Origin: Antedon bifida
Taxonomy: Eukaryota > Echinodermata > Crinoidea > Comatulida > Antedonidae
Assembly (NCBI GenBank): GCA_963402885.1
Contig: OY727103.1
Location: forward strand, 16,022,085 to 16,086,084
Direction: 5' to 3'
Length of the DNA: 64,000 nt
The notes beneath the pieces were generated by a model. The model saw only the letters and a list, made by a program, of their open reading frames with translations, was not told the DNA's origin and ran no database searches. Of this stretch, positions 7,143-64,000 are shown in pieces (positions within the stretch are counted from its first letter, which is position 1; each line of letters opens with the position of its first letter). Both the position numbers and the translations under genes were made by a program.

Positions 7143-10100
7143 TTATGATAATAGGTTTAACAACAAGAGACCATCTTCTAGTTTCCTCATCTCTTCATCA
7201 ATATCTTCCGCAAGGACCACTGTATTTTCCTCCTCGTTGTCATCGTCTTCCAAAGCACAAAGAAGTGTGTCATTCTCATACGTAGGAAAGAAGTATCTAC
7301 AAGATCAAAACATGGTAACATTTAATAATTACTGCACAATTTCGACAAAGCACTTTCATAGAAATATCTTATGTAAACTTTAATTTTACCATCTTTCATG
7401 ATGATTTCATATCTCTACCATATTTAAGCATATCACTACCATATTTGGGCACATCAAACTTTTTTTGTCAAACTAGTTTGATGGTGTAGACAGAGCTTAA
7501 ACTATGAATTTTCAGGCTTTCGTAGATCTTCGTCTATACATTTGTGCAACAGAATCTCCGATCAATCTAAATATATATAGACATGATGACTTACTGTGGC
7601 TGATCCCACACCTTGCGGTCAGGTATTTGTGATATGTGTTTTTCTTCGGTCATATGCTTGTAAATTTCGTCATCCGATGTGTATTTTTCTCGACAAACAA
7701 AACAGCTGTGCTGGTGCATTTCTCGACGAATAAAATTGATTAACTTAATTTGGTGATAAAAGTTTAAATCTGCAGAAAACAAATTGGAAATTGTTAATTG
7801 CTTTGAGTTTCATAAATGGAATATAATAAATAATTTTGAAAAAATAATGAGAGCCAATTTTACCTAATTTTTTTTTAATAACGCCAAGATCAAAACTGTG
7901 AACTTGTGTCATGTGACTCAACATGGTTGACATTTCAGAGGAGTTGTAAGAGCAAAACAAACAAACAATATTCGCACTTGCATCATCATCCCAATCTTCC
8001 CAGTTTCTGGTGAAAAAGAAACAATTAGTATATAGTAAATGTAGGCCTAACAATAATAGTTTAATACAATTAACATACATAATAATAAAACAAAAGAAGA
8101 TATATAATCTCTTAGGCAGAGGAAATAATATTACTAAATCAATCTCATTGGTAATTTTTCTTAGCAGCACTGGAAGGAGTTTAGGACAGGGCAAACGCAC
8201 ACACTTGTACATTGTTGACAAAAAAAACCTGACTTGACAAAAAAACATGAAGTCTGGAACCAATGCTGCCATAATGCAATGCACCAACCTACAGCGTCAT
8301 AGTTCCTAACAAACAACTTGGGATTGCTGTTTGTTATAAAGAGACATTTTGGAGCATCCCACCAGGAATTTTTCTTTCATTTATTAATCACTTACTCAGA
8401 GTCTGGGGATTCACTCCGTGCTGCTATATCCCTATCATCTTCTGCCCGCACATCTTCCCAGTTTTTACCCATCTCTAAATAGTTTATAATGTAATATTTG
8501 TCGTATTCTTTATTCTTTGGGTTGACTTTTTTGTGTTGCTTTTTTCTCATGTGATCTTTTAAAGTGGTCCTGTCACGAAAAGTTTTCTCACAATATAAAC
8601 ATTGTAATCTAAAAGACAAAAATAGACCCGTTTGATTAATAAAAATGTTTTAAGTAAATTTATATTTGTAAACATTCTTGAAATATGTTTTTTTCTAATA
8701 TTATACATGATTAAATTATTATGTTACATAACTTACTTATCAAGCTTTTCTTGTAACTTGTCTAAAAATTCATTCACAAAAACTGCAAAACAAAAATATT
8801 TTATAAAATCGTTGTCATAATCATAATTTTATTTACTGTACTATAAGTCAAGTCCACTAGGAGGTAGTATTTGTGAACTGCTGTACTTTCCTTGTACTCT
8901 TTGTGTTCAACTTATAGTCCACCTTATTCTTACTGTATATATATACTGTATCTCCACATAGTTTCTGTAATACAGTGTCACATGTATCACATGTGACAAC
9001 ACTATTATGTTAAGGTTTACAGCCTATGATACCGGACAAATTGTATATTGTACATTGCGATTCAGTAGCCTGCAGCTAGGATGATAATGCTATTGTTTAC
9101 CTTGCCTCTTCACCACTGCTGTAAATTAAATTAGTAAAGTAAATACTTACCAATATTATCGGATCTTCCTATTGCAAAACTGTGATCCTTGGATAAGTGA
9201 TCTATCAATGCCATTCTGTTCCCTTCAAACACATCCCAACAAAACAGACACCGCCGTTTAAAGTTGACATCATCACGCTCCTTCTGAAGCTGGAGGAGGA
9301 TGGAGTCGAGTCGTCTGCGTTGCAAGAACTCCCTCAAGCCTTTATCCTCTTGCAGCACATCGGACAATAGGTAGAAATCTTCTTGTTTTCCTGATAGAAA
9401 ATATATTCTTTAATATGAATTAGTTCAAGCCAAACATTTTTTTAATTTAGAAACTTGACAAATATTCCATAAAATATCAACAATTCAAGTTTTAACTTTC
9501 AGAAGTTACACAAAATCATGGCAGTAACTGAAGCTGCCAATTACCTGGACTGTCCTGTTTGCAATTGGTTTTGATGACCGAACAGAAGTCTATGATTGGT
9601 TGTTCAGAAAATCGCATTTTCCAATATCCAATATAGCTGAAAATTAAAAAAAAAATACAGTAAAACCTCTCTTTTCGGACACACCCTATTAAGGGGACAC
9701 TTTAATTCATTAAATCTATCAAGGGCATATAGGTTTTAACATCACAGCCAACCCCTATTAAGGGGACACTCTGTTGGATCCTGACTGAAGGTTCCCTCTA
9801 GGAGTAAGTCAGTCGACGTTAAAATCTTTGGGTGTTGTTGTTTCTGTTGAGAGAAAGGAATTTGTTATTTACCATGTATAGTTGCACATTGAGAATAACA
9901 CTTTACCTACCCTACAAAATCACTAATCAAATTGACATCTGCTATCAGAAATTTATGTTCATCAATCATATGTTTCAGAAATGGATCTTTATCTTCTTTA
10001 ACATCAAACAACATTGAACAAAATACACAGGTTACTGTATTAGTTCTCAGAGATTCAATCGCTAGATCCCGAGCATCACTGCTTTCTGGAAGATTTAGGG

Positions 10101-10149
10101 CTTCCAACTGGACGTCATCTTTCTGACTTGTTTCACCACCACTTGCCAT
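7143..10149 (-). CDS. ZNF277: Zinc finger protein 277
   Basis: Eight exons join in frame: 9911-10149, 9545-9636, 9151-9390, 8737-8782, 8396-8608, 7864-8006, 7595-7769, 7143-7296. They give 433 residues; the vertebrate protein has about 450. All introns are GT-AG. Five C2H2 fingers are visible, at about C41/C44/H60/H65, C158/C161/H175/H180, C209/C212/H225/H231, C292/C295/H308/H313 and C347/C350/H363/H369. The stretches LQCLYCEKTFRD, HMRKKQH, IKLINFIRREMHQ, DRKVWDQ and FPTYENDTLLC identify the family. ZNF277 is a nuclear zinc-finger protein reported to bind ribosomal protein uS5 and to act with Polycomb; that is family knowledge. The start is the first in-frame Met and gives MASGGETSQ. A candidate poly(A) signal on the - strand lies at 7088-7093. 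Introns carry family A, family K and pogo-like repeats. Confidence 0.95.
7400..7500. mobile_element. MITE, family A (copy 4, left end missing)
   Basis: Only the right part is kept: CACTACCATATTTGGGCACATC, then TAGTTTGATGGTGTAGACAGAGCTTAA. It lies in the last intron of ZNF277. Confidence 0.7.
8957..9050. mobile_element. Inverted-repeat element, family K (copy 1)
   Basis: The core TACAGTGTCACATGTATCAC is shared with copies near 22440, 31118 and 42218. It lies in a ZNF277 intron and is non-coding. The ends are degraded. Confidence 0.55.
9658..9815. mobile_element. Dispersed repeat with CAGTAAAACCTC end (family M, copy 1)
   Basis: It begins CAGTAAAACCTCTC and contains two copies of CCTATTAAGGGGACAC. 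Related sequence occurs at 41673-41855, 43155-43215 and 63836-64000. The CAGT-AACCTC end resembles pogo/Tigger-type termini; the assignment is tentative. It lies in the first ZNF277 intron. Confidence 0.5.
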
Positions 10150-10414
10150 ATTAGGAGTGTATGTAAATATATAATCGGCTAGTTAGGGCCTACCCTACCA
10201 AAAAATATGGAAAGTTAAAAACATTTTGTGCATTTTCATAAGATAAACATTTTAATTCAAATTCTTTTATTTAAACATTGTTGAATTTACAATATTAAAA
10301 TAACAATTAATAAATAATTAAAAATACAAGTTCACATTACAACATATAAAAATGACATTACAACAATATTTAAAGCATTAATAAAATAGCAAGCCTGGCT
10401 CTCCTACCTAGGCC

Positions 10415-10622
10415 GGGATCCAGTCAAGTCGCCCCATCGCAAAGTCGCCTCATACAAAGTCGCCCAATACAAAGTCGCCCCATCGCAAAGTCGCCCCAAA
10501 ACAAAGTCGCCCCGGCACAGTCGCCCCATCGCAAAGTCGCCCCATTACAAAGTCGCCCCAACGCAAAGTCGCCCCAACGCAAAGTCGCCCCAACGCAAAG
10601 TCGCCCCATCGCAAAGTCGCCC
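10415..10622. repeat. Left arm of the foldback element, 13 tandem units
   Basis: Units follow the form GTCGCCCC plus a short variable tail. The tails run ATCGCAAA, ATACAAA, ATACAAA, ATCGCAAA, AAAACAAA, GGCACA, ATCGCAAA, ATTACAAA, AACGCAAA three times, and ATCGCAAA. Open frames across this array are translations of the repeat, not genes. Confidence 0.9.
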
Positions 10623-12057
10623 ACGGTTTTATTTCGGTATGATTATGAAGCGCCGCCGCTAGTAGTACGCTGTAGTCGGTTGCGTTTGATATCGATTGCG
10701 TTGTTACTTTGGTCGCGCTAAAGTAAATGTCGTATATACATTATAATGTTTATCCTATTATATACATAATTTGTGTTTTAATTTTTATTTTACAGGTTTT
10801 AATGGAGTGATGTGCTTTTTAAAAATCATTAAAGAAATAGTCCCTTGTTTGAAAGTTCTAAAAAGATTATCCCTGATTTATAGTTTCGAAAATGTTAATT
10901 TAATATGATTTTAAAATTAGTTACCAGAGCCACTATTACGAATCTTTCTTCAACCTACGCGTGGATACCAGCTCATTTTTAGGATAATATAATAAATGTG
11001 TAGTAGGCCTTCGTATAGATTTACAGTAGTTAAAACAATAACAGTGTTGTAAGACAATGAGTGTTATAGGCTACTTATTGATCATTTTGCATTTATTGAC
11101 AAGTTATGTGTCTTAATTTTATAATGACTTTTCAAAATGAAGAAAAAAATAAAAAAATTTCATCACCGATATGATTGTTTTACATGCAGGTATTTTTGTA
11201 AAATTCAAAACGCTACATTTTGACCATGGAATAACCATCGTACAGTATCGTGTGCGTGTTTTTTAAAAAGGGGAATCCCCGACGGTCAGCAGAAAGACGT
11301 AGCAGCTGTGAGGAAACAGATACCAGAAGGCGCAGCTCCGATTGGTTTCAGAGAATGTTTCAGATGGCGAGTCGCCTTTTATTCAACAGCACAATGATCA
11401 TTTTACTGAAGAAATTCTTTTCAACCCTTTTGGTTATAGAACATTCTAATTATCATGCCTAATAAATATCCTCATATCGGGTGTTTATTTAATTTTAAAT
11501 TAAACAAGACAGTGAAGAGGCACGGAATAATACGTACACGGACGTACGACGAATACACACACGCACGTACACGTACGTCATCATTTACGACATATAGTGG
11601 TGATATGATGCAATTTTATAATGGATATAATGATGGGATTGCCTTTCCAGGCTTAGAATCAATGTTCATTGTAATACTATGTATATAATAGTAAACTGAA
11701 TGTTTATAAATAAATTGTTTTACGTAATTTGTTGCATATAAAATAAAAGACACAGACGCAGCCTACGTTTCCTATAAAATATTTCACATTTAAATAATTA
11801 TGTACTGTTAAATGACATTATGCTGGATAATACTATATAATCTTAAACTATGTTTACAAATTGTCATTTTTTAAGGCACACATCTTTCTCATCATACTGA
11901 CCTGTAAAATAAAAACAAAAATCAATTATTAATATAGGCCTAATAATAATAATAAATATTCATCGACCAAAGTAAAAATAATCTAGATCGTATAACATCA
12001 TTTTATCGCGACCAAAATTAAACGCGACCGATTTCGAACGCGACTGATATCATCGTA

Positions 12058-12255
12058 AAACTCCGGCGGGGTTTCCCCATCTTCAGATGGTGCGTTGTAG
12101 TGCGACAACGGCGGAGTAATTACGGGGGTTTCCCTCTGGTAAGCTAGCACGTTAGTGCGACCGCGGAGTGATTAGTCGGGGTTTCCTCTCTGATGATGGG
12201 GGTGCGTGCCGATTGTGTAACCTGAGACTACATGGCGGGGCTTCCCCTTTTATGC
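12058..12255. repeat. Internal spaced repeat of the foldback element
   Basis: Four copies of a GGCGGGGTTTCCCC-like motif are spaced about 60-80 bp apart. Several are preceded by GTGCGAC and GCGGAGTNATTA. The block is GC-rich and lies next to the right arm, so it may be a subterminal binding region. Confidence 0.55.
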
Positions 12256-12326
12256 ATACACGTTCCGTGTTATTTTGTGTATCATTGCGACATTTTACGC
12301 ACTTGTAAACTATTTTTTAACGTTTT

Positions 12327-12536
12327 GGGGCGACTTTGCGATAGGGCGACTTTGTGATGGGGCGACTTTGCGATGGGGCGACTTTGCGTTGGGGCGACTT
12401 TGCGATGGGGCGACTTTGCGATGGGGCGACTGTGTCGGGGCGACTTTGTTTTGGGGCGACTTTGCGATGGGGCGACTGTGTAAGGGGCGACTTTGTATGG
12501 GGCGACTTTGCGATGGGGCGACTTGACTAGCATCCC
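12327..12536. repeat. Right arm of the foldback element, 13 tandem units
   Basis: These are GGGGCGAC-type units, the reverse complement of the left arm. Read inward from the outer end, the variable tails are ATCGCAAA, ATACAAA, TTACACA, ATCGCAAA, AAAACAAA, GACACA, ATCGCAAA and so on. The order matches the left arm almost unit for unit. Confidence 0.9.
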
Positions 12537-13345
12537 CTAGGCCTAGCCTAGTCGTAATCCTCTCGCGGGCGTGGAGGGGTCCTTCTCGCGGAAGCTACTC
12601 TCTAGCCGCGCCTATACTAGCTAGGCCTAAGGTCTACCCATAGTCCTAGTCCTCTAGAGGCTAACTATGCCTAGCTAGCCTTATAGATGTATAACATAAA
12701 TGTTAAGACATATCATAGGTCTACCCTAGAGAAGGTAGCCTAGCCCTATACTATACTTTGTTATGCAGTAAAGGTAAAATGCGGTCGCCGTGTGTGTGTG
12801 TGTTGTTTTGGTTTTTTTTTTGTTAAAATTATTGGCACGGTCACCGTGCTGATAGAAAATACTAATTTACATAAACGCGACACGCGGCGAGAAATGACAC
12901 GCATGGTTGATCTTTGGTTGATATAAGTGACCCCCATAAAAAAAACCCATAATACAAAATATAATTCGGAAAAACCGGTCGTAAATAATGAAGTCTATTC
13001 TTGGAGTGTTGTTTGTTTTTATAGGATGCTGTTCTAACGTAATCTTTTTAGAACTTCTGGTAACGTAAGTATTGTTTATTATACATTAGCACCGGTTAAA
13101 AATAGGTCCGCCCTAGTAGGCCTAGGCCTAGCTAGGCCTTGGGCCAGGCCTACTAGCTAGGACTACGGTACGAGTAGTAGTAGGCGTTAGGTCCCTCTAG
13201 CTCTAGCCAGGCGAAGCGGCCAACTAGGCATAAGCCTGCCTATAGTATAGAGGGCTACTACTTCAGGTATAGGCCTAGGTCTATTTATATTATAGATGAT
13301 ACTACTAATCCTCCTACATTGCCTACCGTACATTATTCTAGCCTA
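12537..13345. repeat. CTAG/AGGCCT-rich low-complexity patches
   Basis: Two patches (12537-12745 and 13105-13345) are dense in overlapping CTAGGCC, GCCTAGC and TAGTCCTAG words. They flank the first exon of SLC35B4. A similar patch lies at 20105-20310 beside the presumed first exon of CDK17. Confidence 0.6.
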
Positions 13346-16300
13346 GGTACCATATAACTTTTGATTTCAAAGATTTGCAAATGTCTGATTTTAATAAATT
13401 ATAAATATGTTTTTGTTTTTACAGTGAATATCCGGGATGTGGCAATTTAATAACATTTGCTCAGTTTTTTATCATTTCTGTAGAAGGTTTTATATTTACC
13501 ACTAGATTTGGTACAAAGAAACCTGTTATTCCTGTAGTGTAAGTATATACTGTATGCGTTAACTATGTGCAAACGTGAAAAATTTCAAATTTGCGCAAGT
13601 ATTTCCTTTGCAATTTGAATACAAATAATTGATTCAAATTGCGCAGAAAAAAAAAAAACACAAGATATTTTTAGTTTATAAAACAAAAGCTTGTATAACC
13701 AAATCTTTTATGCATACATTTTCTAAATAATGGAAGTGATAAAATAAAAGATTTAAATGTTATAACATTGTTATTTTGGAGAATGATAAATCTGAATTAA
13801 TGATTGTTTTTTCATATTTTTTTTTAATTTTTAGGAATGTGTATTCATATTTTTTAATTATTTAAAAAAAAAATTTCATACTTTGAACTAATTTACATAT
13901 TTTCTTTTTTTTTTTACAGAAATTATCTGTACATGGTAATGTTCTTTTTTATTGTGAGTGTAGTTAACAACTATGCAATCAATTTCAACATATCTATGCC
14001 GTTACATATGATATTCCGCAGTGTAAGTATTGTATACTAAACCTACCTATGCAAAAAGGTTGTTCCAACAAGAATATTAATTTAAGGATTGGACCCTGAC
14101 ACTTGGTAAGGATTGAACCCTGGTACTAGGTCAGGATTGAACCCTGGCACTAGGTCAGGATTGATTGTCCCCTGGATCCTGGGATTGGAAGGCAAGCATG
14201 TTAATCACCAAGCTAGAACTCCACTTGCATTAACAATTATATTTTCTTTTATAGGGTTCATTAATAGCAAATATGATATTAGGAATAATGATATTGAAGA
14301 AAAGGTAAGTAATTAAATCGCTCAAAAATCAATTTTCAGTTTCTTTGTTAAATTATATATATTGTACAGTAAATATTAATGTTATAATGTTTGTATTTAT
14401 TCCTGTTTTTTTTTTCAGATATACTATTTCAAAGTATTTAGCTGTTTTGATGATATCAGCCGGTATATGTACCTGTACCATTATGTCTGCAAAAACAGTT
14501 GTAAGTTTAAGTTTTCTTTAACTTAAATTTATCTTATTATTATTATTATTATATCTAAGAGAACCTGGTTTTATGATTGTTAATTGTTACTGGTGGTATT
14601 TGATATTATTGGAGTAATAATAACTAATCTATTAATGGTTAATGTTGCTACCTGCACATTGTTAGTCAGGTAGAATTTCACGCAGTTGGTGGTTGTTATA
14701 ATATAAATTAAAAACCCTTTCATTAAGACTACCTCTATTTAGAGACTGCTAGATAAACAGTAACTGTAGATTGTTAATTATGAATCCTTATAATTGATCA
14801 ATTTTGAACTTTGACCCTTATATCTGATTGATTACCTTCCAAATTCGTAATCTACTGAAAATTATCTAGAAAAGTTGGATGGCTATTGTCCCCCACCTAC
14901 CACCAGGCTATTAATTAGTAAGTAGCCAATTCAACTGGATATATAAACTATATAATTAATATAAACTATGTGTCATTAGAGGCTTTACAACCCTGGCAGG
15001 GATGACCCTTGACCTTGGGATTGGAAGGCAAGCATTTTAACTACCAAATTTCAGCACCACTACAATATGTTTACTATATTTCATTATTTGGCTCTTCGTT
15101 GATTTTTTTGTTTTTAAGATTAATGAGTGATCTCTTTCTTCTTTGAACTTCTTGTTTTTTTAGAGTCGTGAGAGTGACAAACATAAACACTATGAGGAAG
15201 AGGATGAGACAGAATCAGCAGAATTTTTCACCTGGCTAATAGGTTAAAAAAAAGATATCAGTAAACCCTGGGTATCATTGCATCTTCTCTGCAAGCGTAA
15301 TACTGCTGTGGACATTTAAACTTGCACATGACATACCAATGACTTTGTTGGTATAGGCCGAACCTAGATTCAAGATTCATTTATTAATTTAATAGGAAAT
15401 TTCATTGCTTGCATTTAAAAATAGAATACAAATATGATACAAGATCGGTCAAGAAAAATTGACCTATTGCATTTTAGCCCCTCATGATCATAAGCCTACC
15501 TTGCAATTTTGTATTGGAGTCAACTGCAAACTAACAAAAATATGATACATTCTTTATTGTGAATCAATAACTTGGCATAAGATTATGTATTCTATTCACA
15601 AGTCATAGTGGTATTTCTTATTATCAGTATGCAATTTAATACTTTGTATAGTAGTACATTATGCTAGGTTTTAGTATCATGCGATCTCCAATAACACATT
15701 TTAATTGTCATTTGTAACATTGTTCATGTCGTAAAAACTGGTAAAAATAACCTACCATCCACCCTACGTTCAATACCGGGATAATTAGCATAATGCATAT
15801 GATGTGCCTACTATGGTATATATATAGATAACATGCAAAGAAGCAGTATTTTTTATCTATTGTTATTCTTGTAGGTATTGGTATGCTGACATTTGCTCTG
15901 TTTATGTCTGCAAGAATGGGTATCTATCAAGAAGTACTATATAAACAGTATGGAAAACATCCCAGGGAAGCACTTTTTTATTCTGTAAGAATTGTTATTT
16001 CTTAACACTCATCTTGCTGTTTGCAAGTGCACTAGACCTGTTCTGAGGGTGGTACAATCCAGTGATTTCAACTCAACCCCACCCCAAACTCCTATAATAA
16101 AATTTTGATCAACTTTGCACACAATTTATTCAATTCTGAATGTTATTCGTTCTTAATAGTTTTCATTATTAATATTATTATTTATACATATTTCCATTTT
16201 CATACCCAAATGTCTGGGTTCCGCCACTACAATCTCTTCTTCTATAACTTTAATATAGTTGTTCATTAACATAAAAACAATATACTGTACAGTAAAACTT

Positions 16301-17963
16301 AGGTGCCAACAAATTGTCTTCTTCATAGGGTTCTTGTGAATAGAGTCAGCCATAGTTTTAAAACATATATTTCCCCTTTGTTTCTTGGGATTGTGTCCTG
16401 AATAAGCGTATCCCAAAGGGGGGAATCTATGGTTGTATAAAGTCTACACTATGAAAGTAGTTTGACAAAAATTGTGTGATGTGCCCAAATATGGTAGTGA
16501 TATGCCCAAATATGGTTGTGATATGATGACATCGTATCAATATTTGAGCATTAAGTTTGATAGTGTAGACAGAGCTTTAGATATTGTTTTACTCTCTTTT
16601 CAGCATGCTATACCACTGCTAGCATTTGCCTTCATTGGCAAAGACATTATGCATCATGTGTCACTGTTCTCTCAATCAGGTAAATGATTTTAAAATATAT
16701 TCATTAAATGAAATGTTAGTGAAATCATAATGTCCATATATTCGGAAGTCACATTTTTTTGTCTTATAAAGTTTGATTGTGTAGACAGAGCTTAAAATTA
16801 GATGAACCTGATTGAGTTTACTCCGTTCTATGAATGATTTAAGCTTATCCATAAGTTACATCTGTCTGTAACATGTTAAGATAAATATAGCAGAGTTACA
16901 ATTGCAGTTTAGGTTGTTCTGCATTTATCACTTTTGGAACTTATCGGAAGAACATCAGAGTTATATCGAAACAGAGGTATTATTATCCATTTATGTGTTG
17001 ATAGATAATATACTGTACATGTTATAACATACTCAATGTTATGGTTTTCTTACAGAACCTGTTGAAATTCCTTATTTGGGCATAGAAATGCCTATACTCT
17101 GGCTCTACATGATTGGAAACTGTATTACTCAATATCCTTTAAAAACATTTTTTTCACAATACCTCCACAGTTTTGAAGTTAATAGATTTAGCACTTCCAG
17201 ATGATCCAAAAATAAGTTAGATATTTATGATAATATAAAACAAATACAAAAAAAAAGTGAGGCAAACTACCATGATTTAACATTTCAAACTTATTTGTTC
17301 ATATTCAGGAATTAATAATACTGTATTTACAATGTAACATATTTCTAGGTAATAATGGTGTGTTGGGATTTACACCTACCTTTAGAATACCTTGAATTAT
17401 TTTTTATTTTTCCATCCCACCAACCACTCTATAAAGCATCTTTGCCACCTGGATTAGGCCTTCTACAGAGACCACAATGATCAGCACAATCCCTACCCTT
17501 TATGAGCAAATTGTCTTGCAAGCAACATCACAGGCAGGTCTCAAACTCATGCCTCAAACCATTTCCAAATCCTTGCCTTAAACCCATGCCTCTCACATGA
17601 TAGTCCAATGCTCTATATCTTGTCACATTTATCCTAAGCTTTTACAAAATCTAAATCCTAAATAAACATTTGATATTAATATATTATTTGTTACGTCCTT
17701 AACTCAATGTATTCACGTATGTCTGTATTCGATCTGTCTTCATCCTTACCACAGAATGTTCATCTCTCGTTGTTACGCTCGTCGTCACGTTGCGCAAGTT
17801 CGTCAGTTTGATTTTCTCCATAGTCTACTTTCAGAACCCGTTCACGTTCTATCACTGGATCGGTACTGGTATGGTTTTCGGTGGTACGCTCATTTTCTTA
17901 GGTTTTATCGAGAAAGTTACAAATGTTTTACGGCCACCACCTAAAGATGTGAAAGTGGAGTAA
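12988..17963 (+). CDS. SLC35B4: UDP-xylose / UDP-N-acetylglucosamine transporter
   Basis: Ten exons join in frame to 337 residues (vertebrate protein 331): 12988-13064, 13425-13538, 13920-14022, 14255-14304, 14419-14500, 15164-15242, 15875-15984, 16604-16679, 17056-17131, 17717-17963. Diagnostic stretches include GCCSNVIFLELL, MPLHMIFRSGSLIANMILG, FALFMSARMGIYQE, LTTECSSLVVTLVVTLRKF and YFQNPFTFYHW. The protein is a multi-pass nucleotide-sugar/drug-metabolite carrier of the Golgi/ER. It exchanges UDP-xylose and UDP-GlcNAc for glycosylation; that is family knowledge. The start is the Met that begins the first hydrophobic helix. The tail KDVKVE is hydrophilic and not a clear KKxx signal. Nine exon junctions fit: eight introns are GT-AG (one with the weak donor GTTAAA after 15242) and the last is AT-AC. 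A possible poly(A) signal is AATAAA at 18582-18587. Confidence 0.95.
14100..14222 (-). mobile_element. tRNA-derived SINE with internal triplication
   Basis: The - strand reads as a tRNA-like head, with an A-box-like TAGCTTGGTGATT and a GGTTCAATCCT B box. The B-box segment (GGATTGAACCCTGGCACTAGG on + strand, about 24 bp) is repeated about three times. It lies in the SLC35B4 intron before exon 4. Related copies are at 14975-15055, 30527-30608 and 62585-62675. Confidence 0.65.
14975..15055 (-). mobile_element. tRNA-derived SINE fragment
   Basis: The + strand reads ACCCTGGCAGGGATGACCC, then GGGATTGGAAGGCAAGC and TTAACTACCAAATTTCAGC. This is the complement of the same tRNA-like head as at 14100-14222, more diverged. 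It is intronic in SLC35B4. Confidence 0.55.
16436..16579. mobile_element. MITE, family A (copy 5)
   Basis: The right end GATAGTGTAGACAGAGCTTTA is intact and the left end is worn. The interior has CCAAATATGG boxes. It ends 24 bp before exon 8 of SLC35B4, so it abuts that exon's polypyrimidine tract. Confidence 0.8.
16728..16793. mobile_element. MITE, family A (copy 6, right half)
   Basis: Only the TGTCCATATATTCGG segment and the right end TGTGTAGACAGAGCTTAA remain. It lies about 50 bp after the donor of SLC35B4 exon 8. Confidence 0.65.
17132..17716 (+). other. U12-type AT-AC intron in SLC35B4
   Basis: The intron begins ATATCCTTT (17132-17140), the U12 5' splice-site consensus, and ends in AC (17715-17716). 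A U12 branch-point match, TCCTTAAC, lies at 17696-17703, about 14 nt from the 3' end. Removing it joins CA to G and restores the conserved ITQ-YVCIR reading across the junction. No GT donor or AG acceptor nearby gives an open, homologous frame. Confidence 0.93.
17430..17640 (-). mobile_element. SINE-like retroposon in the U12 intron
   Basis: Read on the - strand it has a tRNA-like head (GAGCATTGGACTATCATG, then a weak B box GGGTTTAAGGC), followed by GCAAGACAATTTGCTC. The body is typical of invertebrate SINEs. The exact limits are uncertain. Confidence 0.4.
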
Positions 17964-31658: not shown

Positions 31659-47413
<15,755 letters not shown>

Positions 47414-51984: not shown

Positions 51985-53203
51985 CTATGATACATAATAT
52001 TTGTCAATTACTCTAACAACATCAAACCGTCCACAGGCTATGCAAGCCTGACGCCATTCATCAACCGTCGGGTCACGATTTTCAGTAATTGTTAAATGCT
52101 GTATCATGGTTTTTGAGGGACTAAACAATACAGAACTTGTCTCACTCTTGCTCTCCCATCGACGTATACACCTTTTCTCTACGTTGAAATGATCCGCTAT
52201 TAACTGCCAGTTCTTCCCACCAGGATCTGTCATATCCAACGTCATAGTCATTTTCGAGAGTACACTCTCTGGCATGTCTTCCAATTTCTCATCTAGACTA
52301 TGCATTAGAAAATCTTTTGCCGTTCCTATTAAAAGAGTATGATGTTATAACATCACAGCAGTACAATTCTCAGTAAAAGAAACAACGAACGTAGGCCTAA
52401 CTATACTTTACAAAGTGATACCGATAGGCCTACCTGGTTTACCGGTACTTGATCCAGACGGGCACTGAGCAGTGTTTTCCACACACCCGACTTCAATGTC
52501 TTTATTCAAGTTCTTTGTACTTTCTGAAAACATAATTGTAAATTTTTTTTAAAACACACATAAACAAACCCATTAAAAAGTACAGGTATGAACAAATTTA
52601 AAAAACACAATATAGAAACAAAAATATTTATTATCCAGAACTAGTTTCCACAGTTTTTGTTATATTAACAACACAGATTTACTACAGAATTACATTTATT
52701 TTATGGTAGCCACTATATACTGTATCTTTAAAAAACATTTTTTGAAGAAAAATAATCCTACTGGCTGTGAGAAATATAGTTTGTTATAATGTTTGTCATT
52801 TACTTTTTTATTCTAGAAATTATGAGGATTGTCTTTCATAATAATAGTTTTATTTTCTCATCTTACTTACTCTCTTTATAGCTTGAATTTGTCTCATAAT
52901 ATCAGATGTATTAACATTTTCTTCAATTTCATTGGCAGTTTGGTTTTGTTCTGTATTTCTATCACATTGAGGTGGTGTCACAGCGATTTCAGGCTGCACT
53001 GTACCGTCTTGTAATTCTTCATTTTGCGCATCTTGTGGAATTACCGGTTCTGGTTCTCCCAAAAGTTCTACTGGTGCTTTTGTAATTTTGTCTACTAGTT
53101 CTTCCGGAAGCTCGTATACTGGTTCTTCCGGAAGTTTGTTTTCTCTTTTAAAAGATTTCATTTTTGCTTCACTCACTCCTCCTCTACTCCAAAGATTACC
53201 CAT
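51985..53203 (-). CDS. Death-domain protein with N-myristoylation-type start
   Basis: Three exons, 52867-53203, 52434-52523 and 51985-52325, join in frame to 255 residues. The start MGNLWSRGG has Gly2 and Ser6, the N-myristoylation pattern, followed by a Lys/Arg-rich stretch. Residues about 24-110 are acidic and Pro/Glu-rich (LPEEPVYELPEELV) and look disordered. Residues about 160-252 form a death domain: DPGGKNWQLIADHF, RCIRRWES, SPSKTMIQHL, then TVDEWRQACIACGRFDVVRVIDKY, matching helices 2-6 of the fold. Death domains assemble oligomers in NF-kB, Toll/IRAK and apoptosis signalling. The pairing here suggests a membrane-anchored adaptor; that is inference. I do not recognise a named family. 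Exon 1 must use the second of two tandem donors to stay in frame. A possible poly(A) signal on the - strand is at 51689-51694. Confidence 0.85.
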
Positions 53204-61300: not shown

Positions 61301-64000
61301 AATGAGTTTGCTTTTTTAGAATGAAATATTTTAATTTGTAATGGTTTTAATAATGAAATGAAAATACTATGAATTCAAATTGGAGAAAACTTGAATAAAG
61401 TAATATTAGTGCCATTTTAAAAGTATAATACTGTTTGTAGCATACAATATACTGTATGTACTTTAATCAGTTAAAAATGAATTATTCATTTGCTATACAA
61501 AACATAATTACCAATGATTAAAGAATGTCATTTAAATGATTAAAAATGTAAATGGGTCAATCATTTAAATGTTATGTATTCATTATTCATTAAAAATGTA
61601 AACCTGACATTTATACATGTACAGTATTACTAGTCATGTTAATGTACTGTAAATTGACAATTTGGTAACCCAACACGACAAGAACAAGATTTGATCATAA
61701 TAGTTCCATTTCTCATTTTATGTAGGTTGCTCCATGCACTGATTAAATATGTTCACTGATTTACTTTAGGGGTGTAGTTTTAAGCAGATGGTGAAAGGGA
61801 TTTGAAATATCACCCTGCTGATTATCATTCTCCCTGGTTTGTTGAGACACACCCTGTCCACAAGGGCACGAAGCAGTAAACATGCTTATGTCTGCTGACG
61901 ATGAAACAAAGACTATATTTAAACAGTCATTTCTATTCTGGATTTACCCTTTAATATTTTTTTCAGTATTGTCAGTATATTAGTTGCAATCCACAGATAA
62001 AATAAAATATGAAAAATTACTATAATAAATTTCTAGCTACTGTATAATGCATGTATCCTTTTTTGAGATTATATTTAAGAAGTAATTTCTATTCTTGATT
62101 TATCCTTAGTTTATTATTTTGTTGACAATCTGTACTGTCAGTATTTCTGTAAAGTAGTAGCAATCCACAGATAAAATAAAATATGAAATATTATTACTAT
62201 AATAAATTCCTAGATATACAATGCCTGTACCCTATGTTTTGAACTGTTCCTGTAAGAATTCGCTAGCGTAATATTCTTCTGCCAAATCATGAAACAAAAT
62301 ATTTAGATATTTTTATTGCTCAATAAATAGAAATTGGTTTCTGTCGTACAAAAATGTCTTTTCCTTTGGCAATAAAGCAATAGATATGATGCAAAATAGA
62401 AGTCGTAAAAAAAGCTGTCAACATCGTAATGTTTCATTCCTGTGTAGTACCAGCTGAGTACAGGAGGAATGTTAGTAGACCTTACGGATCAAGAGAATTT
62501 GTCAAGAAAATCGCTAACTACAGAATTCATGAACTCTTCGTCTCATTTGAGGCTAAGGGAGTGTGAGTTAAGTAGCGAGAGTTCATGAGTTTACAACCCT
62601 GGCACTAGATCAGGATCGAACCCTTGACTTTAGGATTGAAAGGCAACCATGTAAGCCACTAAGCTACAGCTCCACTATATTTAATGAACAATTTTTATTG
62701 AGCCTTACAGTAACTTGACATGAAAAAGTACTTACAATTACCAAATAAATTTTGTATCTCTTGTATTTTTACATATTTTTCTTTTCAGAATTTTCATTAA
62801 TTTCTGTGATTGTTAAGGATTGTTGTAATTAGTGTTTAATTTCACAATCATCACTTCATCTTAAAATTAGTTTTAGGAATTATTGCTAACACACCCCAAG
62901 CAACTCAACACTGGTATTCAAGCTAATTGATTATTTTTTCTGAATAATATCATAAGCAATCGGACTAATTCACCGTTATAATGAGTCCGTTAGATTAGAC
63001 TATAATTTCTGTGATTAAGAAAGTGAGAATGTCATTTGGCAAAATAACTCTATTCATGCTTGTATTTCGTTGATGTTAGACACTTCTTATTAGATAGATT
63101 TAATGATATAAAGATCTACATATTATGAATCATGCTTTCTGCGATAGCAAGACTCTATGATTTATAATTACTTTGCATTGGTCGCATAAATACATCTTCA
63201 TTTTTCTGTAAAAGCAGAGGTATTTATTGTAAATTACCAAATCCATTATGTTTTGCAAATGGGAAAATTATTATATTCATATATTGAATGATTTAAATAA
63301 AAGTATGATTGAATAATATAATTCTGTTTTCAATACATTATTCATACCATTATCCTTGATGACATTGCAGGAATATAGTATATTCATAAATGAAGTCTTG
63401 TGATCAATGTTTTCATCAAATCATTATGTGACAATAATGATATGTACTACAATGTTTAAATGAAATGGGGTCTCTCAGGAAACCAGTAAATCTTGTATGG
63501 AAGAGATCCCAGATTACATTTAAAAATTAAAGTTTTCTTAATAACAAAAAAACAATAAAGGGGGTGAAAGTAGGGGTTTGTTCTGATCTTTTGTCAGCAA
63601 TGTCAATATACCGTATGAGCAAAGATTGTTGAATAGCGCTATACAAATTGATTGATCGATTGATTAATTGCAACGAAAGGATATTAGATAAACAACGAGA
63701 TACATAATTGAAATATTCATTTTGAATAAGTTTTCAACTGGCTGCATATATTACAAGTTAGGATATTATTATTAGTATACTCTCAGTATGCAGTAATTTT
63801 CAACCTATGATCATTGTTGACAAATACAAAAATATACAGTAGAACCTCTATTAATGTGACACCTTCGGCACCTGACAAAGTTTCCCCTGAATAAGGTTGT
63901 CCTCTGAATAGGGGTGGGCCATAGTGCATTGTAATGTATTTATACTTGTTTGTCCTTAATAATAGAGGTGTCCCCTGAATAGAGGTGTCCAAAGGAGGGG
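55352..64000 (+). CDS. 5' end of a gene for a secreted or membrane protein (partial)
   Basis: Exons 55352-55440, 57112-57193 and 62448-62562 join in frame, with donors GTAAGT, GTAAGT and GTGAGT. The start MASYWAVIYLLIFSIVGTF is a good signal peptide. The next stretch (LEEVKEMASRIQLDLVNHLN, KMKPSKLQD, then YQLSTGGMLVDL) is amphipathic and helical, with NSS at the end as a possible glycosylation site. The placement and pattern recall the VWA_N region that follows the signal peptide in voltage-gated calcium channel alpha2delta and CACHD1 proteins. That is weak, and the family stays open. The third exon lies 5.3 kb downstream and is less certain than the first two. The gene runs out of the window. 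Confidence 0.55.
56385..56455. repeat. AT-rich palindrome
   Basis: ATACAAATAATAAATAAATT and its mirrored complement AATTTATTCATTATTTGTAT face each other across an alternating TA centre (TATATATAATTATATATA). It could extrude as a cruciform. It lies in the first intron of the 55352 gene. Confidence 0.6.
57728..57827. mobile_element. MITE, family A (copy 9, ends eroded)
   Basis: The interior is well kept: ATGTGACAACAAATGTGATG, CCATATATGG, and ATCACTACCATATTTGGGC. The termini are reduced to CACAGAGCTTA on the right. Confidence 0.7.
60043..60200. mobile_element. MITE, family A (copy 10)
   Basis: The left end is eroded (AGAGCTTGCTTTAAAC). The right end GATAGTGTAGGCAGAGCTTTA is nearly intact. It has a CCAAATATGG box; the other internal boxes are mutated. 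Confidence 0.75.
61913..62235. repeat. Tandem duplication, about 160 bp unit
   Basis: Both halves contain, in order, ATTTCTATTCT, GATTTA-CC, a CTGTCAGTAT-like block, GCAATCCACAGATAAAATAA and CTATAATAAATT-CTAG. The copies are diverged, so the event is not recent. Confidence 0.6.
62585..62675 (-). mobile_element. tRNA-derived SINE head (best copy)
   Basis: On the - strand the A box is TAGCTTAGTGG (62656-62666) and the B box is GGTTCGATCC (62613-62622), both near consensus. It begins AGTGGAGCTGTAGCTTAGTG and lies 23 bp after the third exon of the 55352 gene. Confidence 0.75.
62676..64000. other. Intronic tail of the window
   Basis: No further exon in the right phase is recognised after 62562. 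A family M repeat starts at 63836. The rest is plain AT-rich DNA. Confidence 0.5.
63836..64000. mobile_element. Dispersed repeat, family M (copy 3, cut by window end)
   Basis: It begins ACAGTAGAACCTCTATTAAT and carries TTTCCCCTGAATAAGG, GTCCTCTGAATAGGGG and GTCCCCTGAATAGAGG. This is the clearest copy of the family. Confidence 0.65.

Follow-up and report, generated by a model that had tools for sequence, protein, structure and literature searches.

We have analyzed a 64,000-nucleotide window of the genome of the crinoid Antedon bifida (G000:C16:16022085-16086084; positions are those of the window unless a contig is named). On the evidence of its sequence, the ninth and last intron of a SLC35B4-like transporter gene in this window is almost certainly an AT-AC intron of the minor (U12-type) spliceosome, spliced at 17131/17717. 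What we observe directly are the splice signals, the reading frame, the genes for the minor snRNAs of the host and, by computation, the pairing between these RNAs and the intron. The U12 AT-AC reading is supported by the agreement of the signals and the frame with the lower scores of all GT-AG and GC-AG alternatives and with the snRNA genes. The result corrects the gene model, which annotation could otherwise truncate or mis-splice.

The SLC35B4-like gene

The gene lies on the + strand at 12988-17963 and its ten exons encode a 337-residue transporter of the UAA family. Exon 1 starts with the ATG (12988-13064) and is followed by seven exons with GT-AG borders: exons 2 (13425-13538), 3 (13920-14022), 4 (14255-14304), 5 (14419-14500), 6 (15164-15242), 7 (15875-15984) and 8 (16604-16679). 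Exon 9 (17056-17131) has an AG acceptor on its 5' side and an AT donor on its 3' side, and ends in phase 2 with ATTACTCA. Exon 10 (17717-17963) includes the stop codon. Introns 1 to 8 are thus GT-AG and only intron 9 is AT-AC, as the first-pass annotation had said in counting eight ordinary introns beside this one; its coordinates for the AT-AC intron were also exact. Seven of the eight GT donors read GTAA and one reads GTTA. The tail encoded from exon 10 amounts to 82 residues if the split Gln codon is counted, and 767 nt of coding sequence lie upstream of exon 10.

The spliced product contains a full-length UAA domain: residues 3-316 match positions 2-307 of the 311 in the Pfam UAA profile (PF08449) in one stretch, with 380.7 bits. 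Exon 10 by itself matches profile positions 243-307 with 86.0 bits. We tentatively take the gene to be SLC35B4, rather than SLC35B1 to SLC35B3, from its sequence near ITQYVCIR and in the exon 10 stretch. A search of solved structures (E up to 0.1), in a reference set that does not contain SLC35B4, returned only three SLC35B1 sequences, the best at 44.2 bits. The genome has at least 10 UAA matches among the best candidates scored, three of them inside the SLC35B4-like gene and seven elsewhere; no second SLC35B4 copy was recognised by eye among the seven others listed. A SLC35B1-like paralogue on contig C1 differs from intron 9 in having an AG acceptor of the ordinary, pyrimidine-rich kind, which by alignment lies about five codons away. 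Another UAA-family transporter (G000:C14:6216586-6217485) is encoded in one open frame of 343 residues, as against ten exons for the SLC35B4-like gene.

Splice signals of intron 9

Intron 9 (17132-17716, + strand) is 585 nt long and interrupts the frame in phase 2, as defined by its signals and the reading frame. It begins with ATATCCTTTA and ends with TCCTTAACTCAATGTATTCAC. The 5' splice site ATATCCTTT at 17132-17140 agrees with the U12 consensus [A/G]TATCCTT and can pair with the U11 and U6atac RNAs of the genome. The branch site TCCTTAAC at 17696-17703 fits the consensus TCCTTRAY, close to the acceptor, and leaves A17701 (or A17702) bulged in the computed U12 helix; 13 nt separate it from the end of the intron. 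U12-type introns have AT-AC or GT-AG termini, and here the gene model places AT at 17132 and the AC acceptor at 17715-17716. All three signals, with the correct spacing, had been recognised in the first-pass annotation. Lin et al. 2010 (PMC2831892) describe the motifs of the class as ATATCCTT, TCCTTAAC and AC, and intron 9 matches these motifs exactly.

Among 20,000 dinucleotide-type shuffles of intron 9, a method that keeps the first base A, one started with ATATCCTTT, and 33 of 20,000 had TCCTTRAY at -28 to -8. If these rates are multiplied as independent, both motifs would occur together by chance at about 1e-7. Each strand of the AT-rich window has three copies of ATATCCTT; apart from the one in intron 9, these are two sites on the + strand and three on the - strand. 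Single motifs thus recur, and the evidential weight comes from their placement at a coding junction. Within intron 9, positions 17197-17361 belong to a dispersed repeat with at least 30 other partial matches in the genome, at 71-86% identity.

In a search for a second U12 intron, motifs were listed across the window on both strands and the sites at 40345 and 63684/62818 were inspected. The ATATCCTT at 40345 is part of the end, rich in pyrimidines, of an ordinary intron that precedes a kinase-like exon, and continues as TTTTTGTTTC. On the - strand a pair of motifs lies near 63684 and 62818, where no coding stretch was seen to join in any of the three frames read.

The exon junction and alternative joins

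Splicing out intron 9 joins ITQ to YVCIR, restoring the reading ITQYVCIR that had been proposed for this junction. When the two boundaries were moved together through 41 length-preserving registers (-20 to +20), AT-AC termini occurred at shift 0 only and GT-AG termini in none. Shifts 0 to +4 yield the identical peptide MIGNCITQYVCIRSVFIL. The protein therefore narrows the junction only to five registers, and it is the AT-AC signals that pick shift 0.

With any intron length allowed, 13 GT-AG or GC-AG joins (7 GT, 6 GC) keep the frame. Their donors lie between 17057 and 17299 and their acceptors no further than 17849; donors further downstream are closed because the retained frame stops 23 residues past ITQ. 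The C-terminal parts of these products and of the AT-AC product, starting at residue 161, were compared with the UAA family. The score was 200.2 bits for the AT-AC product and 87.4 to 175.8 bits for the 13 others. The top alternative, GT 17170 to AG 17754, preserves the length of 337 residues and one continuous UAA match (175.8 bits) with 12 residues replaced. This GT-AG pair (17170-17754, + strand) overlaps the AT-AC pair with a shift of 38 nt and has a weak donor, GTTTTG. Over the full length, the UAA score was 380.7 bits for the spliced product, 321.8 for the join of GC 17080 to AG 17754 (307 residues) and 281.6 with intron 9 retained. The earlier claim that no GT-AG alternative gives this reading holds for the conserved peptide, but the GT-AG join 17170/17754 also gives a product of 337 residues. 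The companion claim, that a standard predictor would lose the last 82 residues, has the right figure, but the loss is unnecessary since either 17170/17754 or GC 17080/AG 17754 could be used.

The overlap itself admits a twintron-like arrangement, in which the AT-AC pair 17132/17716 and the GT-AG pair 17170/17754 are both used and give two open 337-residue transporters that differ by 12 residues. If this were true, the C-terminal isoform would depend on which of the two spliceosomes, minor or major, acts on the transcript. It is an unlikely arrangement: use of the GT-AG pair is disfavoured by its weak GT donor and its lower family score. A lineage-specific gain of intron 9, or a change in its class, would fit the data too. 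That a GT-AG (or GC-AG) intron is used in place of the AT-AC one, whose appearance would then be due to chance, is very improbable. The 13 in-frame joins give this reading its room, and the best of them, 17170/17754, in which YPLKTFFSQYLHK replaces YVCIRSVFILTTE, has its intact length and continuous match in its favour. However, its product falls 24 bits below the AT-AC product, its donor (ACA-GTTTTG) is unlike all eight GT donors of the gene, and a perfect U12 5' splice site and branch site would be left idle by chance.

There is likewise very little probability that the major (U2) spliceosome removes the AT-AC intron, as is known for sodium channel introns. Termini alone are indecisive, since AT-AC introns of the U2 type exist (PMC2831892, PMC3584512). 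However, such introns have G at +5 (PMC2831892), whereas intron 9 has C at +5 within a full U12 motif. Its branch site is also an exact U12 one, and its acceptor is not preceded by a long pyrimidine tract. A pseudogene copy, or a segment always retained to give a shorter transporter of 279 residues through the frame that stays open for 23 residues after ITQ, is highly improbable, since the ten exons form one open frame, exon 10 is conserved (UAA, 86.0 bits) and the seven other UAA matches listed are, by eye, unlike a second SLC35B4 copy. Retention of intron 9 would remove the last conserved stretch of the transporter, and the stop would have no exon junction downstream of it because intron 9 is the last intron.

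Minor spliceosome genes and RNA pairing

Searches for snRNAs and protein families covered the 315.6 Mb genome (27 contigs). At least one locus each for U12 (124.2 bits), U6atac (136.6 bits) and U4atac (96.9 bits), and at least two for U11 (88.6 and 85.6 bits), scored above the Rfam cut-offs, so that the host is predicted to carry U11, U12, U4atac and U6atac genes. The two U11 loci (L011 1501-1629 and L012 1501-1631) are diverged, lie on different contigs and have the common 5' end AAAAAGGGCTTTT; from their sequences, both may be active. The PDCD7 family, which we take to be that of the U11-59K protein, was matched in two stretches on contig C15. None of the five minor-spliceosome families (U11, U12, U4atac, U6atac and PDCD7) was found in the 14 control genomes, all of which are prokaryotes.

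With the RNAs of the same genome, the computed pairing of the intron 9 5' splice site reaches -5.2 kcal/mol for U11 and -6.4 kcal/mol for U6atac; the corresponding values for the 5' splice sites of the eight GT-AG introns are -0.9 to -2.9 and -0.9 to -4.7 kcal/mol. The computed helix with the genome's own U12 has ten pairs, formed by TCCTT and ACTCA of the intron, with A17701 unpaired. The U12 energy by itself discriminates poorly: intron 9 has -11.5 kcal/mol and intron 8 has -10.6 (the best 16-nt stretch within its last 40 nt), the GT-AG introns span -6.3 to -10.6, and the control introns of KCMF1 and PHB2 (see below) have -6.3 and -7.6. According to PMC3584512, the adenosine of the branch site stays outside the helix with U12, and either of the two A residues may play this part.

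On these data, ATATCCTTT and TCCTTAAC would be recognised by the U11 and U12 RNAs, and U11 would then be replaced at the 5' splice site by U6atac. A17701 or A17702 would attack the 5' splice site and exon 9 would be ligated to exon 10, giving transcripts spliced at 17131/17717 that read ITQ-YVCIR. The order of these steps is taken from the known minor spliceosome. Removal of intron 9 would make the full transporter.

Control introns in the same genome

The two genes chosen as positive controls, KCMF1 and PHB2, are both from Table 2 of PMC2831892, which gives them an AT-AC intron of the U12 type in the fly as well as in human. Both have such an intron in this genome. For KCMF1 there were four zf-Di19 matches, of which two neighbourhoods were examined and one was translated; for PHB2 there were seven Band_7 loci, all of which were motif-scanned and one translated. 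The names KCMF1 and PHB2 in this genome are presumptive assignments from sequence. The KCMF1-like intron (G000:C8:33292978-33293363; L033 5538-5923, minus strand) is 386 nt long, starts with ATATCCTTTTG (containing ATATCCTTT), has the branch site TTCTTAAC and ends in AC; its removal joins HRTVRDL to DEAAAGRHVRRMFHPGRG (RDL-DEAA). The PHB2-like intron (G000:C7:28593655-28594199; L038 1738-2282) is 545 nt long, starts with ATATCCTTTC (containing ATATCCTTT), has the branch site ACCTTAAC and ends in AC, and its removal joins EGEAESAIM to LGEAISQNPGYLKLRKIRAAQ (SAIM-LGEA). This genome thus keeps minor introns with the same signals in its KCMF1- and PHB2-like genes, whose counterparts have long been known to contain such introns.

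Other features of the window and genome

Just upstream of the SLC35B4-like gene, positions 10422-12528 hold a foldback-like element with two inverted arms of 201 nt, 95% complementary and 1705 nt apart, made of arrays of the AAAGTCGCCCC type in which repeats are mostly spaced at 16 nt. On the - strand at 7591-10182, in divergent orientation to the transporter gene, are open frames that resemble exons of a C2H2 zinc-finger gene, presumably ZNF277-like; one of the two frames scanned matched zf-C2H2_2 (41.3 bits) and the other had no match. Three of the seven frames of the window scanned for families gave a match. A protein-kinase-like frame (40327-40638, + strand) scored 28.8 bits, where Pfam sets its cut-off at 31.7. 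A Death-domain frame (51985-52344, - strand) scored 27.3 bits, above its own cut-off. In the mitochondrial contig (15,844 bases), COX1 shows its conserved residues when translated with table 9, in which AAA codes for Asn and both AGA and AGG code for Ser, and the strand opposite COX1 carries what we take to be ND1- and ND2-like frames. Together these features suggest an echinoderm, perhaps a crinoid or a starfish.

Comparison with known systems

U12-type AT-AC introns, which are removed by the minor spliceosome, are exemplified by those of KCMF1, PHB2, STX6 and SLC9A7. Intron 9 shares with the known members their 5' splice site, branch site and AC acceptor, and it is likewise a single minor intron among GT-AG introns. 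Its host gene, to which the name SLC35B4 is tentatively given, resembles SLC35B4 in encoding a UAA protein, here of 337 residues with the family match at residues 3-316. The host gene is the one difference seen from the known introns: Table 2 of PMC2831892 covers 19 U12 introns of the fly and names SLC35B4 for none of them. Literature searches for SLC35B4 with minor intron, minor spliceosome or AT-AC returned no paper, and SLC35B4 with U12 returned one, on sheep pituitary (PMC10684748); intron 9 may nonetheless be in published gene lists. According to PMC10639083, deuterostomes except tunicates, for example the starfish Asterias rubens, have a vertebrate-like density of minor introns, and a minor intron in this genome is therefore expected. 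Intron 9 leaves the understanding of minor introns unchanged. What this genome gains is a clean AT-AC example and a set of genes for the minor snRNAs; the intron is an ordinary, textbook member of a well-known class.
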